Shown in pieces: positions 58,575 to 62,923 of a stretch of 64,000 bases of DNA; the first letter of the stretch is position 1, and each line of letters begins with the position of its first letter. Source of the stretch: Aggregicoccus sp. 17bor-14 (lineage in GTDB: Bacteria > Myxococcota > Myxococcia > Myxococcales > Myxococcaceae). The notes below the pieces were generated by a model. That model was not told where the DNA came from. It saw nothing but the letters and a program-made list of their open reading frames with translations, and ran no database searches. The translations under genes were made by a program, and so were the position numbers. The DNA is taken from NCBI RefSeq assembly GCF_009659535.1, contig NZ_VJZZ01000004.1, positions 248,001-312,000 on the forward strand, in the 5' to 3' direction.

Positions 58575-59576
58575 ATGACCTCCGCCTCCCCCCACTCCCC
58601 CAACTGGCCCCGCGTCTTCGTCACCCGGCAGCTGCCTGGCACCGCGCTCGCGCAGCTCGCGGCGCAGGTGGACCTGGAGGTGTGGCCCGGGCCCTTGCCG
58701 CCCCCTCACGGCCTCCTCTGCGAGCGCGCACGGGGGGCAGACGGCCTCATCACCCTGCTCACCGACCGCGTGGACGAGGCGCTGCTCGCGCAGGCGCCTT
58801 CCTTGCGCGCGGTGAGCAACGTGGCGGTGGGCTACGACAACATCGACGTGGCGGCCTGCACGCGCCGGCGCATCGCGGTGGGCAACACGCCGGGCGTGCT
58901 CACCGAGACGACGGCGGACTTCGCCTTCGCGCTGCTGCTCGCGCTCGCGCGCCGCGTGGCCGAGGCGGACCGCTTCGTGCGCGAGGGGAAGTGGAAGACG
59001 TGGGAGCCGGGGCTCTTGCTGGGGCCCGACGTGCACGGGGCCACGCTGGGGCTGGTGGGGCTGGGGGCCATCGGCGCGGCGGTGGCGCGGCGCGCGGCGG
59101 GCTTCGGGATGCGGGTGCTCTACGTGGGGCGCAGCGCGCAGCCGGAGCTCGAGCGGACACTCGCGCTCGAGCGCGTGGACAAGGCGCAGCTGCTCGCCCA
59201 GAGCGACATGGTGAGCCTGCACGTGCCGCTCACCCCGGAGACGCGCGGGTGGCTCTCCCGCGAGGACTTCGCGCGGATGAAGCCGGGCGCGCTGCTGGTG
59301 AACACCGCGCGCGGGCCCGTGGTGGATCAGGCGGCGCTCGTGGAGGCGCTCGCGAGCGGGAGGCTGGGCGGCGCGGCGCTGGACGTGACCGACCCCGAGC
59401 CCCTGCCGCAGGACAGCCCGCTCCTGCAGCTGCCCAACGTGCTGCTCGCGCCGCACATCGCGAGCGCGAGCCACGCGACGCGCGGCAAGATGGCCCAGAT
59501 GGCGGTGGACAACCTGCTCGCGGCGCTCTCGGGCCGCAGGCCTCCCCACTGCGTGAACCCGGAGCTCTACGCGTGA
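58575..59576 (+). CDS. D-2-hydroxyacid dehydrogenase (glyoxylate/hydroxypyruvate reductase type)
   Basis: A 333-residue NAD(P)H enzyme. [20 protein letters not shown] is the nucleotide-binding loop. The catalytic triad is Arg in [14 protein letters not shown], Glu in [14 protein letters not shown] and His in [37 protein letters not shown] matches the D-glycerate/glyoxylate reductase branch. Start at ATG 58575; the upstream open frame has no conservation. The stop overlaps the start of apt (GTGA), so the two genes are coupled. Confidence 0.93.
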
Positions 59577-60106
59577 TCGATCCCCAGCTCGCCGCCGACC
59601 TCGCCGCCCGCCTGCGCGACGTGCCCGACTTCCCCAAGCCGGGCATCGTGTTCAAGGACATCACGCCGGTGCTCGCCGACCCGCGCCTCTTCGCCCGCGT
59701 GGTCACCGCGCTCTCCGCGCCCTTTCGCGGCGAGCACGTCACGAAGGTGGTGGGCATCGAGGCGCGCGGCTTCATGTTCGGCGCCCCCGTGGCGCTCGCG
59801 CTCGGCGCGGGCTTCGTGCCTGCGCGCAAGCCCGGCAAGCTCCCGTGGCGCAGCGTGCAGGAGCGCTACGCGCTCGAGTACGGCACGGACGGGCTCGAGC
59901 TGCACGAGGACGCGCTCGCGAAGGGCGAGCGCGTGCTGGTGGTGGACGACCTGCTCGCCACCGGCGGCACCGCGGGCGCGGTGGGGAAGCTCGTGGAGCG
60001 GCTGGGCGGCGAGCTGGTGGGCTACGGCTTCGTCGCCGAGCTGGGCTTCCTGCCAGGGCGCGCGCGGCTCGGCGGCGCGCGGGTGCAGGCGCTGATCACG
60101 CTGTGA
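59573..60106 (+). CDS. apt: Adenine phosphoribosyltransferase
   Basis: Makes AMP from adenine and PRPP (purine salvage). The 177-residue protein has [20 protein letters not shown] at the N-terminus, [20 protein letters not shown], the flexible loop region [19 protein letters not shown] and the PRPP motif [19 protein letters not shown] 59573 overlaps the preceding TGA. Standard size. The regulatory leader of the short ThrRS gene begins about 30 bases after its stop. Confidence 0.96.
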
Positions 60107-60137
60107 CGCCGCCGCCCCGCTCCCGAAGGGGGGCAGG

Positions 60138-60303
60138 TTGACATCGGGCGCGCATCGCCGCACCCTGTCTCTCGTGAGCTTCGTCATCACTACCGCGACC
60201 ACGACTTCCACCACGACCCGCAAGGGCGGGCTGGGAAGCGTGCGCGCGGCCGACTGACGAGGACCCCGCGCCCCTTCCCGCCCCGCCCGCTGCCGGCGGG
60301 GCG
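60138..60303 (+). promoter_or_regulatory. Predicted threonine attenuator upstream of the short ThrRS gene
   Basis: TTGACA (60138-60143), 17 bases, then CACCCT (60161-60166) as a weak -10; start point near 60173. The leader ORF 60174-60257 encodes eight Thr. Arm 1 CCCGC (60217-60221, over the last Thr and next Arg codons) pairs with arm 2 GCGGG (60226-60230). Arm 2 extended as GGGCGGG (60224-60230) can instead pair with CCCGCCC (60282-60288 or 60277-60283). That is arm 3 of the terminal 9-bp hairpin CGCCCCGCC/GGCGGGGCG (60279-60287/60295-60303). This is attenuator geometry: stalling on Thr codons frees arm 2, forms 2:3 and breaks the final hairpin. No U-tract follows the hairpin, so stopping might be Rho-assisted or translational. 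Confidence 0.65.
60174..60257 (+). CDS. Threonine-rich leader peptide
   Basis: A 27-residue ORF from GTG 60174 to TGA 60257: M-S-F-V-ITTATTTSTTTR-KGGLGSVRAAD. Eight of ten residues from position 6 to 15 are Thr, including two rare ACT codons, which is unexpected by chance in this DNA. It resembles the ThrL peptide of enteric bacteria in its Thr clusters. No Shine-Dalgarno is seen; the predicted start point nearly coincides with the GTG, so it may be read as a leaderless message. The peptide itself is unlikely to function; its translation would sense charged tRNA-Thr for the attenuator. Confidence 0.65.
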   Translation: MSFVITTATTTSTTTRKGGLGSVRAAD

Positions 60304-60380
60304 CGCGCGCGCAGGTGGTCCCTCACACACCGCTCCCCTCCGGCATGGCCCCTCACGCTCCCGAAAGGAGCCTGTACGTC

Positions 60381-61586
60381 ATGCTCGACGAATTCGATCA
60401 CCGCTCCATCGGCCAGCGCCTCGACCTCTTCCACCTGCAGGAGGAGGCCCCCGGCATGGTCTTCTGGCACCCGCGCGGCATGCGCCTCTTCCGCCTCCTC
60501 GAGGAGCGCGTGCGCCAGCACGTGCAACGCGAGGGCTACCGCGAGGTGCGCACCCCCCAGGTGATGGACCAGGCCATCTGGGAGAGCAGCGGCCACTGGC
60601 AGAGCTTCCGCGAGGGCATGCTGCTCGTGGGCGGCGCGGAAGGCCCGGGCCATGCCGCGCTCAAGCCCGTGAGCTGCCCCGCGCACATCCAGCTGGTGCG
60701 CCGCCAGCTGCCCTCCTTCCGCGACCTGCCGCTGCGGCTCGCGGAGTTCGGCCTGGTGCACCGCAACGAGGCCTCGGGCGCGCTGCACGGCCTGTTCCGC
60801 CTGCGTCAGTTCACCCAGGACGACGGCCACATCTTCTGCCGCGAGGAGCAGGTGGCCGCGGAGGTGGCGCGCTTCTGCGGCTCGCTGCGCGCGCTCTACG
60901 CGGACTTCGGCTTCGGGGAGCTGGACGTGGCCTTCTCCAGCCGGCCCGCGGTGCGCGCAGGCGACGACGCGCTGTGGGACCGCGCGGAGGCCGCGCTGCG
61001 CGAGGCGGCGGAGGGCGCGGGGCTCGCGCTGCGCCACCAGCCGGGCGAGGGCGCCTTCTACGGCCCGAAGTTGGAGTTCGTCCTGCGCGACTGGCAGGGG
61101 CGCTCCTGGCAGTGCGGCACCCTGCAGCTGGACTTCGTGCTGCCCGAGCGCTTCGACCTCGCGTACGTGGACTCGGGCGGTGCGCGGCGCCGCCCGGTGA
61201 TGCTGCACCGCGCGCTGCTGGGCAGCATGGAGCGCTTCCTCGGGGTGCTGCTCGAGCAGCACCGCGGCGCGCTGCCGCCGTGGCTCTGTCCCGAGCAGGT
61301 GGCCGTGGTGGGCATGGGGCCACAGGCGGGCGACTACGCGCGGGAGCTCTCGGCGCGACTCGAGGCCGCGGGACTGCGCGTGCAGGTGGAGCCGCGGGCG
61401 CAGTCACTCGCCCGCAGCATCGTCGAGGCCTACCGCGCGGGCATCCCGTACGTGGCGGTGGTGGGCGGACGGGAGCTCGCCCACCGACGGGTGTCGCTGC
61501 GCGGCCGCGGCGAGGACCCGCACGACGTGGGCTTCGAGGAGGCGGTGGCCGAGCTGCAGGAGGCCTGCCGCCCCCTGCCCGGCTAG
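60381..61586 (+). CDS. Short threonyl-tRNA synthetase lacking TGS and editing domains
   Basis: A 401-residue class II synthetase equivalent to the catalytic and anticodon-binding domains of ThrRS. The normal enzyme has about 640 residues; here the first segment is DHRSIGQRLDLFHLQEEAPG, exactly where the catalytic domain begins. Zinc ligands are Cys99 (KPVSCPAH), His150 (QDDGHIFC) and His276 (RPVMLHRALLGSMERF), all present. Motif 2 is LAEFGLVHRNEASGALHG. The C-terminal domain (about 300-400) is present but its last half is diverged. Without editing it may mischarge serine, unless a separate editing factor exists. AAGGAG lies ten bases before ATG 60381; ATG 60345 is a second choice. Confidence 0.88.
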   Translation: MLDEFDHRSIGQRLDLFHLQEEAPGMVFWHPRGMRLFRLLEERVRQHVQREGYREVRTPQVMDQAIWESSGHWQSFREGMLLVGGAEGPGHAALKPVSCPAHIQLVRRQLPSFRDLPLRLAEFGLVHRNEASGALHGLFRLRQFTQDDGHIFCREEQVAAEVARFCGSLRALYADFGFGELDVAFSSRPAVRAGDDALWDRAEAALREAAEGAGLALRHQPGEGAFYGPKLEFVLRDWQGRSWQCGTLQLDFVLPERFDLAYVDSGGARRRPVMLHRALLGSMERFLGVLLEQHRGALPPWLCPEQVAVVGMGPQAGDYARELSARLEAAGLRVQVEPRAQSLARSIVEAYRAGIPYVAVVGGRELAHRRVSLRGRGEDPHDVGFEEAVAELQEACRPLPG

Positions 61587-61615
61587 GGCGCGCCGCTGAG
61601 GGGGACGCCTCCCTC

Positions 61616-62923
61616 TCAGCGGCCGTCGGTGTCGAAGCGGCGCAGCACCACGTCGCGCTCGCCCGCCGCGCTGCGCGTGCTGCCCACCACGAGCACGTCG
61701 CCGGCGCGCGTCACCACCACGTCGCGCGCCTCGTCGTCCGCGGGGCTGCCCCACTGGCGCACCCAGACGGTGTCACCCCGGGCGTCCAGCTTCGCGAGGA
61801 AGGCGTCGCTGCCTCCGCGCGGTGCGCCCTCGAGCGCGCCGCGCGTGGTGCCCGCCACGTACACGCCTCCCGCGGCATCGAGCGCGAGCCCGCTCGCGCG
61901 TGCGGCGTCCTCCGCGCGCCCGAGCCGCCGCGCCCACTCGAGCGTCCCGTCCTCGCGGAAGCGGAAGAGGAAGGCGTTCTGCACGCCGTCGTTTTCGAGC
62001 GCACCCGTCAGCAGGTCGCTGAAGGAGACGGCGAGCAGGTACAGCCCGCCGTGGCCGTCGAGCGCCACCGCGAGGGGCCCGTCGATGTCCGGCGTGCGCA
62101 GCTGCCGCGTCCACGTCCGCGCGTGGTCCGGGCCGAAGCGGGTGAGGAACACGTCGGTACTGCCGGCGCCCTCCCCCTCCATGCCGCCCATGGTGGCGCC
62201 CGCGACGTAGAGCGCGCCGTCCGGCCCCCTCGCGAGCGGGTGGCCCCAGTCGTCTGCCTCCGTGCCGTAGACGCTGCGCCACAGCAGCTGCCCCTGCGCA
62301 TCGAGGCAGTCGAGCGTGGCCTCGGTGCCGCCGCGCGGCTCGGGCGCGGGCGCTCCGAGGCTGCCGGTCCCTGCCACCGAGCCTCCGGAGAGGCACACCT
62401 GGCCGTCGTCGCCGAGCGCGACGCCCATGCCGAGGTCCGTGCCCGGCCCTCCCTGCTGGCGCGTCCAGCGCAGGCTGCCGTCCGCGCCGTAGCGCGCGGC
62501 GTAGAGGTCTCCTTCCGGAGAGGCGCTGCGTCCCGGGAGCGCGCCCTGCGCGGTGCCCACCAGCACGGCGTCGCCCGCCGCATCCACCGCGAGGTCCGCG
62601 AGCGTGTCCGCCTCGGGAGAGCCCAGCTGGCGCACCCACGCGGGGCGCCCGTCCGTCCCGAGCCTCAGGAGGAATGCGTCCTCCGCACCCTGCGCGCCCT
62701 CCGGCGCACCCTCGAAGCGGCCGCGCGTGGTCCCCGCCACGTACACGTGGCAGGCCGCATCCACGCCGAGCGCCACGCCCACGTCGTCCTCCGCCGTGCC
62801 CAGCTGCAGCTCGGACCAGGTGACGCGCGCGCAGACCGGCTCCGCCTCGCCCCCGGCGCAGCCGAGCAGCGCGAGCGCGAGCCCCGCTGCCACGCCTCGA
62901 AGCGCTCCATCGTGGGCTGCCAT
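61616..62923 (-). CDS. Lipoprotein of SBBP-type beta-propeller repeats
   Basis: A 435-residue exported protein with a lipobox (LALALLGCAGG). It contains about seven repeats of 50-60 residues, each with a pattern like YVAGTTRGRFEGAPEGAQG-A-DAFLLRL-G then W-RQLG-S--AD. This matches SBBP (seven-bladed) propellers, common in myxobacterial envelope proteins. Many repeats have Asp-rich turns. Probably surface exposed and involved in binding; no enzymatic site is recognised. A short gene-free gap (62924-63086) follows. Confidence 0.82.
   Translation of the reverse strand: MAAHDGALRGVAAGLALALLGCAGGEAEPVCARVTWSELQLGTAEDDVGVALGVDAACHVYVAGTTRGRFEGAPEGAQGAEDAFLLRLGTDGRPAWVRQLGSPEADTLADLAVDAAGDAVLVGTAQGALPGRSASPEGDLYAARYGADGSLRWTRQQGGPGTDLGMGVALGDDGQVCLSGGSVAGTGSLGAPAPEPRGGTEATLDCLDAQGQLLWRSVYGTEADDWGHPLARGPDGALYVAGATMGGMEGEGAGSTDVFLTRFGPDHARTWTRQLRTPDIDGPLAVALDGHGGLYLLAVSFSDLLTGALENDGVQNAFLFRFREDGTLEWARRLGRAEDAARASGLALDAAGGVYVAGTTRGALEGAPRGGSDAFLAKLDARGDTVWVRQWGSPADDEARDVVVTRAGDVLVVGSTRSAAGERDVVLRRFDTDGR

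Follow-up and report, generated by a model that had tools for sequence, protein, structure and literature searches.

The window analysed here is a stretch of 64,000 nucleotides from Aggregicoccus sp. 17bor-14 (Myxococcaceae). Its forward strand carries a short threonyl-tRNA synthetase (ThrRS) gene, preceded by a leader region that holds promoter-like elements, a small open reading frame (ORF) rich in threonine codons, and a series of RNA segments that can pair in alternative ways (Table 1). The preceding neighbour is the gene for adenine phosphoribosyltransferase (apt, 59567-60106), with about 30 bases between its end and the leader's -35 box. A conserved operon with apt was considered and rejected, as among the stretches read apt adjoins in the window genome only. 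Leader and short ThrRS gene stay together while the neighbour gene changes.

Table 1. Features of the leader and synthetase locus (positions are those of the window)
Feature	Position	Strand	Remarks
-35 element TTGACA	60138..60143	+	Sequence and spacing kept in most homologues
-10-like element CACCCT	60161..60166	+	Family consensus CAYYTT; 17-nt spacer
Thr-rich leader peptide ORF	60174..60257	+	GTG start, stop ends at 60257; predicted leaderless
Segment 1	60210..60222	+	Covers the final Thr codons; segment 2 is a possible partner
Segment 2	60224..60251	+	Antiterminator-like; end of the ORF, partner of segment 3
Segment 3	60260..60287	+	Pairs with segment 2 or with segment 4
Segment 4	60295..60321	+	Forms the 3′ side of hairpin 3:4 (9 inner bp at 60279-60303, then an outer arm); alternative partner is segment 5
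Segment 5	60331..60347	+	Pairs with segment 4: GCCGG-GGGG with CCCC-CCGGC
SD hairpin GCTCC-CGAAA-GGAGC	60357..60371	+	SD GGAG 60367-60370 is segment 6
Auxiliary threonyl-tRNA synthetase	60381..61586	+	401 aa; catalytic core and anticodon domain

The short enzyme matches TIGR00418 (threonine--tRNA ligase) with 422 bits at a cut-off of 384. Its Pfam domains are tRNA-synt_2b and HGTP_anticodon alone; TGS is missing, and so is the SAD editing domain, which removes Ser-tRNA-Thr. A decayed synthetase is ruled out by the Pfam and NCBIfam domain matches. The catalytic zinc ligands Cys/His/His are aligned and retained in the short enzymes, so the enzyme is probably active. The same genome encodes a second, housekeeping ThrRS of 642 amino acids with TGS, SAD, core and anticodon domain, at 45% identity to the short one. 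No Thr-rich ORF was found in the 400 bases before the core match of the 642-residue enzyme, and those bases belong to its own coding frame, which makes this a weak test.

Within the family, 66 genomes encode orthologues of the short ThrRS (63-69% identical), and one is present in cultured Myxococcus (M. qinghaiensis, L032). Four more were found in myxobacteria further away: G138, G163, G164 and L034, a Polyangiaceae MAG. In the tree the short proteins fall into a single clade (support 100/100), separate from all 36 full-length ThrRS. The full-length ThrRS of two members of the same phylum (L154 in G171 and L155 in G187) groups with Psychromonas (Gammaproteobacteria) and not with the housekeeping ThrRS of the window genome, which suggests horizontal transfer. 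One short-ThrRS match (L013, at G005:C1:6435924-6437117) contains a single in-frame TAG, which could reflect either a premature stop close to the C-terminus or an error in sequencing.

A sequence-only reading of this DNA had pointed to a GTG-started ORF of 27 codons at 60174-60257 with eight Thr codons among codons 6-15. This was exact: the window translation is VSFVITTATTTSTTTRKGGLGSVRAAD, with threonine at codons 6, 7, 9-11 and 13-15. How often such runs arise was estimated by pairing starts with stops 15-45 codons apart over 464 kb of the same genome. Among 6,370 combinations, at least 7 Thr in 10 codons occurs in the leader ORF alone, counted with two alternative starts, and 6 Thr in 10 codons occurs in two short ORFs. 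The homologue set comprised 68 distinct upstream regions, duplicates removed. A Thr-run peptide is encoded in every one (68/68), roughly 170-240 nt 5′ of the short-ThrRS gene, and the leader stop codon falls 100-130 nt upstream of the synthetase start. Leader peptides of distant relatives, for example VLLASATTRTTTTCFGGPLVV, VRRAPHGATTTTTVKSGAVVVCAR and MRRSMTTTTTTTTAAGGAGVVRRAPRD, likewise carry the run. At the Thr columns the third codon base is variable in 21/28, the first in 7/28 and the second in 7/28; these free third positions indicate that selection acts on threonine itself. Threonine codon usage over the 68 leaders (60189-60218 in the window, and the homologues) is ACC 321, ACG 125, ACT 75 and ACA 1, so that ACA is almost missing.

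The TTGACA box that had been noticed just before the leader ORF is found at 60138-60143. From the start of TTGAC to the leader start codon the distance is exactly 36 nt in 55 of the 68 homologues, and 35-38 nt in 63. The -10-like box, at columns -13 to -8 before the leader start, is conserved among 28 representatives; in 26 of the 28 the base at -1 of the start codon is C, and the next base is G or A. A strict sigma-70 scan of the window does not call the leader promoter. An SD-like core was found before the leader in none of the 68 homologues (0/68) and before the synthetase gene in all (68/68). From the promoter spacing, the C followed by G or A at the start and the leaders without SD, we infer that the leader mRNA is leaderless and begins at the leader's GTG or ATG; in the window the predicted transcription start is at or beside the G of GTG.

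The leader RNA folds better than its shuffles (z = -2.55). We split it into six segments, with possible pairs 1:2, 2:3, 3:4, 4:5 and 5:6. Three pairings had been proposed from the letters alone: CCCGC (60217-60221) with GCGGG (60226-60230), GGGCGGG (60224-60230) with CCCGCCC (60282-60288), and a 9-bp hairpin at 60279-60303. All three are borne out, the hairpin as CGCCCCGCC-CGCTGCC-GGCGGGGCG. The arms named there were right as far as they went, but their extent was understated, both alternative helices being much longer, and the further hairpin on the SD (60357-60371) was missed.

Pairing was evaluated with a partner-swap test, in which the duplex energy of native partners is compared with that of partners swapped between species, using 28 representatives and also 11 distinct lineages. 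Segments 2 and 3 were defined as separate, non-overlapping stretches for this test. The 2:3 duplex (-40.3 kcal/mol in the window) gave -36.3 kcal/mol for native versus -33.9 kcal/mol for swapped partners; 0 of 20000 permutations were as good, and 29 of 20000 with the 11 lineages. In a fixed alignment 89.1% of its cells are paired, versus at most 59.8% when slid, and they are mostly invariant. The 3:4 hairpin (-31 kcal/mol) gave 0/20000 permutations with the representatives and 3/20000 with the lineages. In its fixed alignment 87.7% of cells are paired and 10 cells have changed on both sides, which 1 of 500 shuffles reaches; its covariation score exceeds that of every slid version. With segment 3 common to both, the 2:3 and 3:4 helices are mutually exclusive, and this exclusivity and their co-evolution are well supported by the comparisons.

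The 1:2 and 4:5 pairs behave otherwise in the swap test. The 1:2 duplex (-14.6 kcal/mol in the window, -12 to -20 across the 11 lineages) is conserved and strong in every lineage and has no covariation signal, native partners not scoring above swapped ones. The 4:5 duplex (-21.4 kcal/mol in the window) has 98% of cells paired versus 35-60% when slid, among 65 homologues with a defined anchor; it too is strong in every lineage, yet without covariation, native partners being no better than swapped ones. Changes between T and C at the second base of the CYCCG motif retain the pair with segment 4 and lose the pair with the SD. We regard a 4:5 link as plausible. The sequence-only reading had staked its interpretation on conservation of the Thr codons and the paired arms in homologues; both are kept in all of them, with compensatory changes.

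Among the 28 representatives the synthetase SD has an openness of 0.087, against 0.41 for 68 other genes of the genome (with the 11 lineages, p=0.001), and the swap test for 5:6 gave 12/20000 with the representatives and 62/20000 with the lineages. These values support sequestration of the SD in a co-evolving hairpin. In the window the partner of the SD is local (60357-60361) and is not segment 5, and 4:5 pairing would therefore free the SD only indirectly. In 63 of 68 folds the SD is more open with a ribosome placed at the second Thr codon than with one at the stop. The mean opening under equilibrium folding is small, 0.16 with the stalled ribosome versus 0.07, and is clear only in some genera. 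In many Myxococcaceae 3:4 is preferred over 2:3 at equilibrium, even with segment 1 masked. Given this preference and the small SD opening, the switch would have to be kinetic.

A covariance model built on segments 2-4 was run on 189 genomes. It matched 68 of them, with one match each, just upstream of the short ThrRS gene. The matched genomes are the short-ThrRS genomes, all of which were found except G138. An extra weak match (G088, E 0.006) was discarded; it falls within a coding sequence of transporter-like type. A scan of the region with Rfam returned no leader family, Thr_leader included, and no T-box at E up to 10.

The locus thus combines a run of cognate codons, conserved exclusive helices that overlap the leader ORF, and a gene concerning threonine. 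We consider it very likely, at whatever level the output acts, that the leader is a ribosome-mediated attenuator that senses Thr-tRNA and controls the auxiliary, editing-less ThrRS. The Thr attenuator architecture recognized in the sequence-only reading gains support from the Thr run and the compensatory pairing in homologues; the control proposed there would be exerted by threonine or by the charging of tRNA-Thr.

For the way in which the signal would reach the gene we favour the following explanation. Sequence and comparison show a Thr run, mutually exclusive helices 2:3 and 3:4, a hairpin on the SD and a one-to-one link with the gene; to these we add by inference ribosome stalling, pairing of segment 4 with 5, the direction of regulation and, for Myxococcaceae, an output at translation. 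The leaderless mRNA would start at the start codon of the leader. When Thr-tRNA is plentiful, the ribosome would pass the Thr codons, reach the leader stop and cover segment 2; segment 3 would then pair with segment 4, and the SD would be held in its own hairpin (5:6), the OFF state. With scarce Thr-tRNA, the ribosome would stall in the Thr run and mask segment 1, which would leave segment 2 free for segment 3. Formation of 2:3 would in turn leave segment 4 free for segment 5, and the SD would open, the ON state. A bolder reading, which we hold with less than even confidence, is a leaderless, amino-acid-specific translational attenuator acting through a five-helix relay (1:2, 3:4 and 5:6 versus 2:3 and 4:5), which would carry the stall signal over more than 100 nt to the SD and silence an error-prone, editing-less ThrRS until Thr-tRNA becomes scarce.

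For the Myxococcaceae we lean towards translation, by release of the SD, as the main level of output, and think it likelier than transcription termination, since no U-tract follows 3:4 and the SD is buried beyond background. The earlier choice to leave transcription versus translation open for want of a U-tract was sound: none is present in the window, where no terminator-like site with a U-tract was found at 60100-61700. Nor was a U-tract found after 3:4 in the other Myxococcaceae representatives examined, which have at most 3 T in 8.

Classical transcription attenuation is the strongest competitor, doubtful in our judgement but to be taken seriously. In it 3:4 would be a terminator (U-less or Rho-assisted), 2:3 an antiterminator and the SD hairpin incidental. 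The layout of 1:2, 2:3 and 3:4 is the textbook plan for such a device, 3:4 is strong (-31 kcal/mol) and covarying, and GUUUCGCUUUU comes after the hairpin in L151, with a weaker U-rich tail in L152. Against this mechanism stand the missing U-tract in the window and the other Myxococcaceae examined, and the conserved, covarying SD hairpin, which would be superfluous to it. In the distant relative L151 (G138:C1070) the U-rich tail GTTTCGCTTTTC lies directly 3′ of the 3:4 hairpin and is terminator-like; the 8 bases after 3:4 contain 5 T in L151 and 4 in L152. Output may differ among lineages, or may have switched between transcription and translation.

A further proposal concerns what the attenuator is for. 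The auxiliary ThrRS might be chiefly an inducible resistance enzyme against obafluorin or borrelidin, with the attenuator sensing inhibition. This is possible, and compatible with the attenuator rather than an alternative to it, and we think it improbable as the chief role. Second ThrRS copies do confer such resistance (ObaO; PMC11252418, PMC10619133), and the leader would stall whenever the housekeeping ThrRS was inhibited. However, the ObaO-type resistance determinant is Ser at the E. coli Gly463 position (PMC11252418), and the short enzymes tested keep Gly (YGP) in 33/33, without the Gly463-to-Ser change (E. coli numbering). In several genera almost every genome has the gene, which also looks more like a general function.

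We give very little weight to the idea that the Thr run is incidental and that the leader ORF either serves translational coupling or reinitiation or codes for a small protein with a function of its own. Korolev et al. (PMC4833913) propose reinitiation for many leader ORFs of bacteria, but the published reinitiation distance peaks near 10 nt (PMC4833913), and a leader stop 100-130 nt from the synthetase start is too far. Apart from its Thr run and the portion involved in RNA pairing, the peptide is variable; against an incidental run, the threonines are kept in 68/68 with free third positions. A chance GC-rich, Thr-rich sequence without regulatory role has a negligible probability: GC-rich leaders always fold, and 6 Thr in 10 codons is found twice in 464 kb, but chance does not explain conservation in 68/68, a fixed place before the gene, covariation and one covariance match per genome.

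The attenuator reading can be set beside known systems. The thrL leader of thrABC in enterobacteria (Rfam Thr_leader) regulates biosynthesis; it combines Thr and Ile codons with an SD upstream of the leader and a terminator that bears a U-tract. It shares with the myxobacterial leader the Thr-run leader peptide, the exclusive hairpins and the sensing of Thr-tRNA (here proposed); unlike thrL, the myxobacterial leader has a Thr-only run, is predicted to be leaderless, lacks a U-tract and stands before a synthetase gene. Synthetase genes are under ribosome-mediated attenuation, by transcription termination, in pheM-pheST of E. coli and trpRS1 of Streptomyces coelicolor, the latter an auxiliary enzyme that confers drug resistance. 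These differ in amino acid, and neither case involves an enzyme that has lost its editing domain. Translational attenuators of the ermC type likewise conceal the SD of their target gene within the leader RNA, but antibiotics are sensed. A leaderless start is known for trpL of Sinorhizobium meliloti; the leaderless leader peptide is common to both, whereas trpL serves Trp biosynthesis and uses a transcription terminator.

That leader peptide of S. meliloti has been described (PMC7298713). In bacilli, a His leader peptide precedes the synthetase paralogues hisZ and hisS* (PMC2965389), and it is likewise a leader-peptide attenuator before a duplicated aminoacyl-tRNA synthetase gene; it differs in using histidine, in belonging to Firmicutes and in having been found via premature intrinsic terminators (PMC2965389). 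Actinobacteria have the LEU element and SD-sequestering ileS T-boxes (PMC1262725). T-boxes differ in lacking a leader peptide, and the LEU element pairs its own Leu codons directly with the SD (PMC1262725). The enzyme itself recalls T2 of Anabaena, an error-prone ThrRS with impaired proofreading that is made under zinc shortage beside the accurate T1 (PMC4787780). Both are second ThrRSs beside a housekeeping one, but in T2 an editing domain remains in degenerate form and control is exerted by Zur and zinc, whereas the myxobacterial short ThrRS is without TGS and editing domains and has a Thr leader.

Leaders before synthetase paralogues, SD-hiding leaders and leaderless leader peptides thus exist, each known only separately. 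New relative to the sequence-only reading are the auxiliary status of the short ThrRS beside a full-length one, the predicted leaderless leader and the sequestered synthetase SD. That reading knew of no description of such a system in myxobacteria, and the literature searched agrees: we found no work joining Myxococcus with leader-peptide attenuators. Nor did we find there a Thr leader before a ThrRS gene; an earlier prediction is possible in a 2010 survey of synthetase attenuators. That survey, by Lopatovskaya et al., was reportedly a comparative one.

As far as the searched literature shows, a leader-peptide attenuator would here be described for the first time in myxobacteria, and no earlier case has a Thr-run leader that precedes a ThrRS gene. 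The covariance model marks a new RNA family that is found once per genome. Sensing of tRNA charging tied to a synthetase without proofreading would be a testable case of regulated translation accuracy. If the relay is true, only starvation or inhibition of ThrRS would lead these bacteria to give up accuracy in exchange for threonylation capacity.
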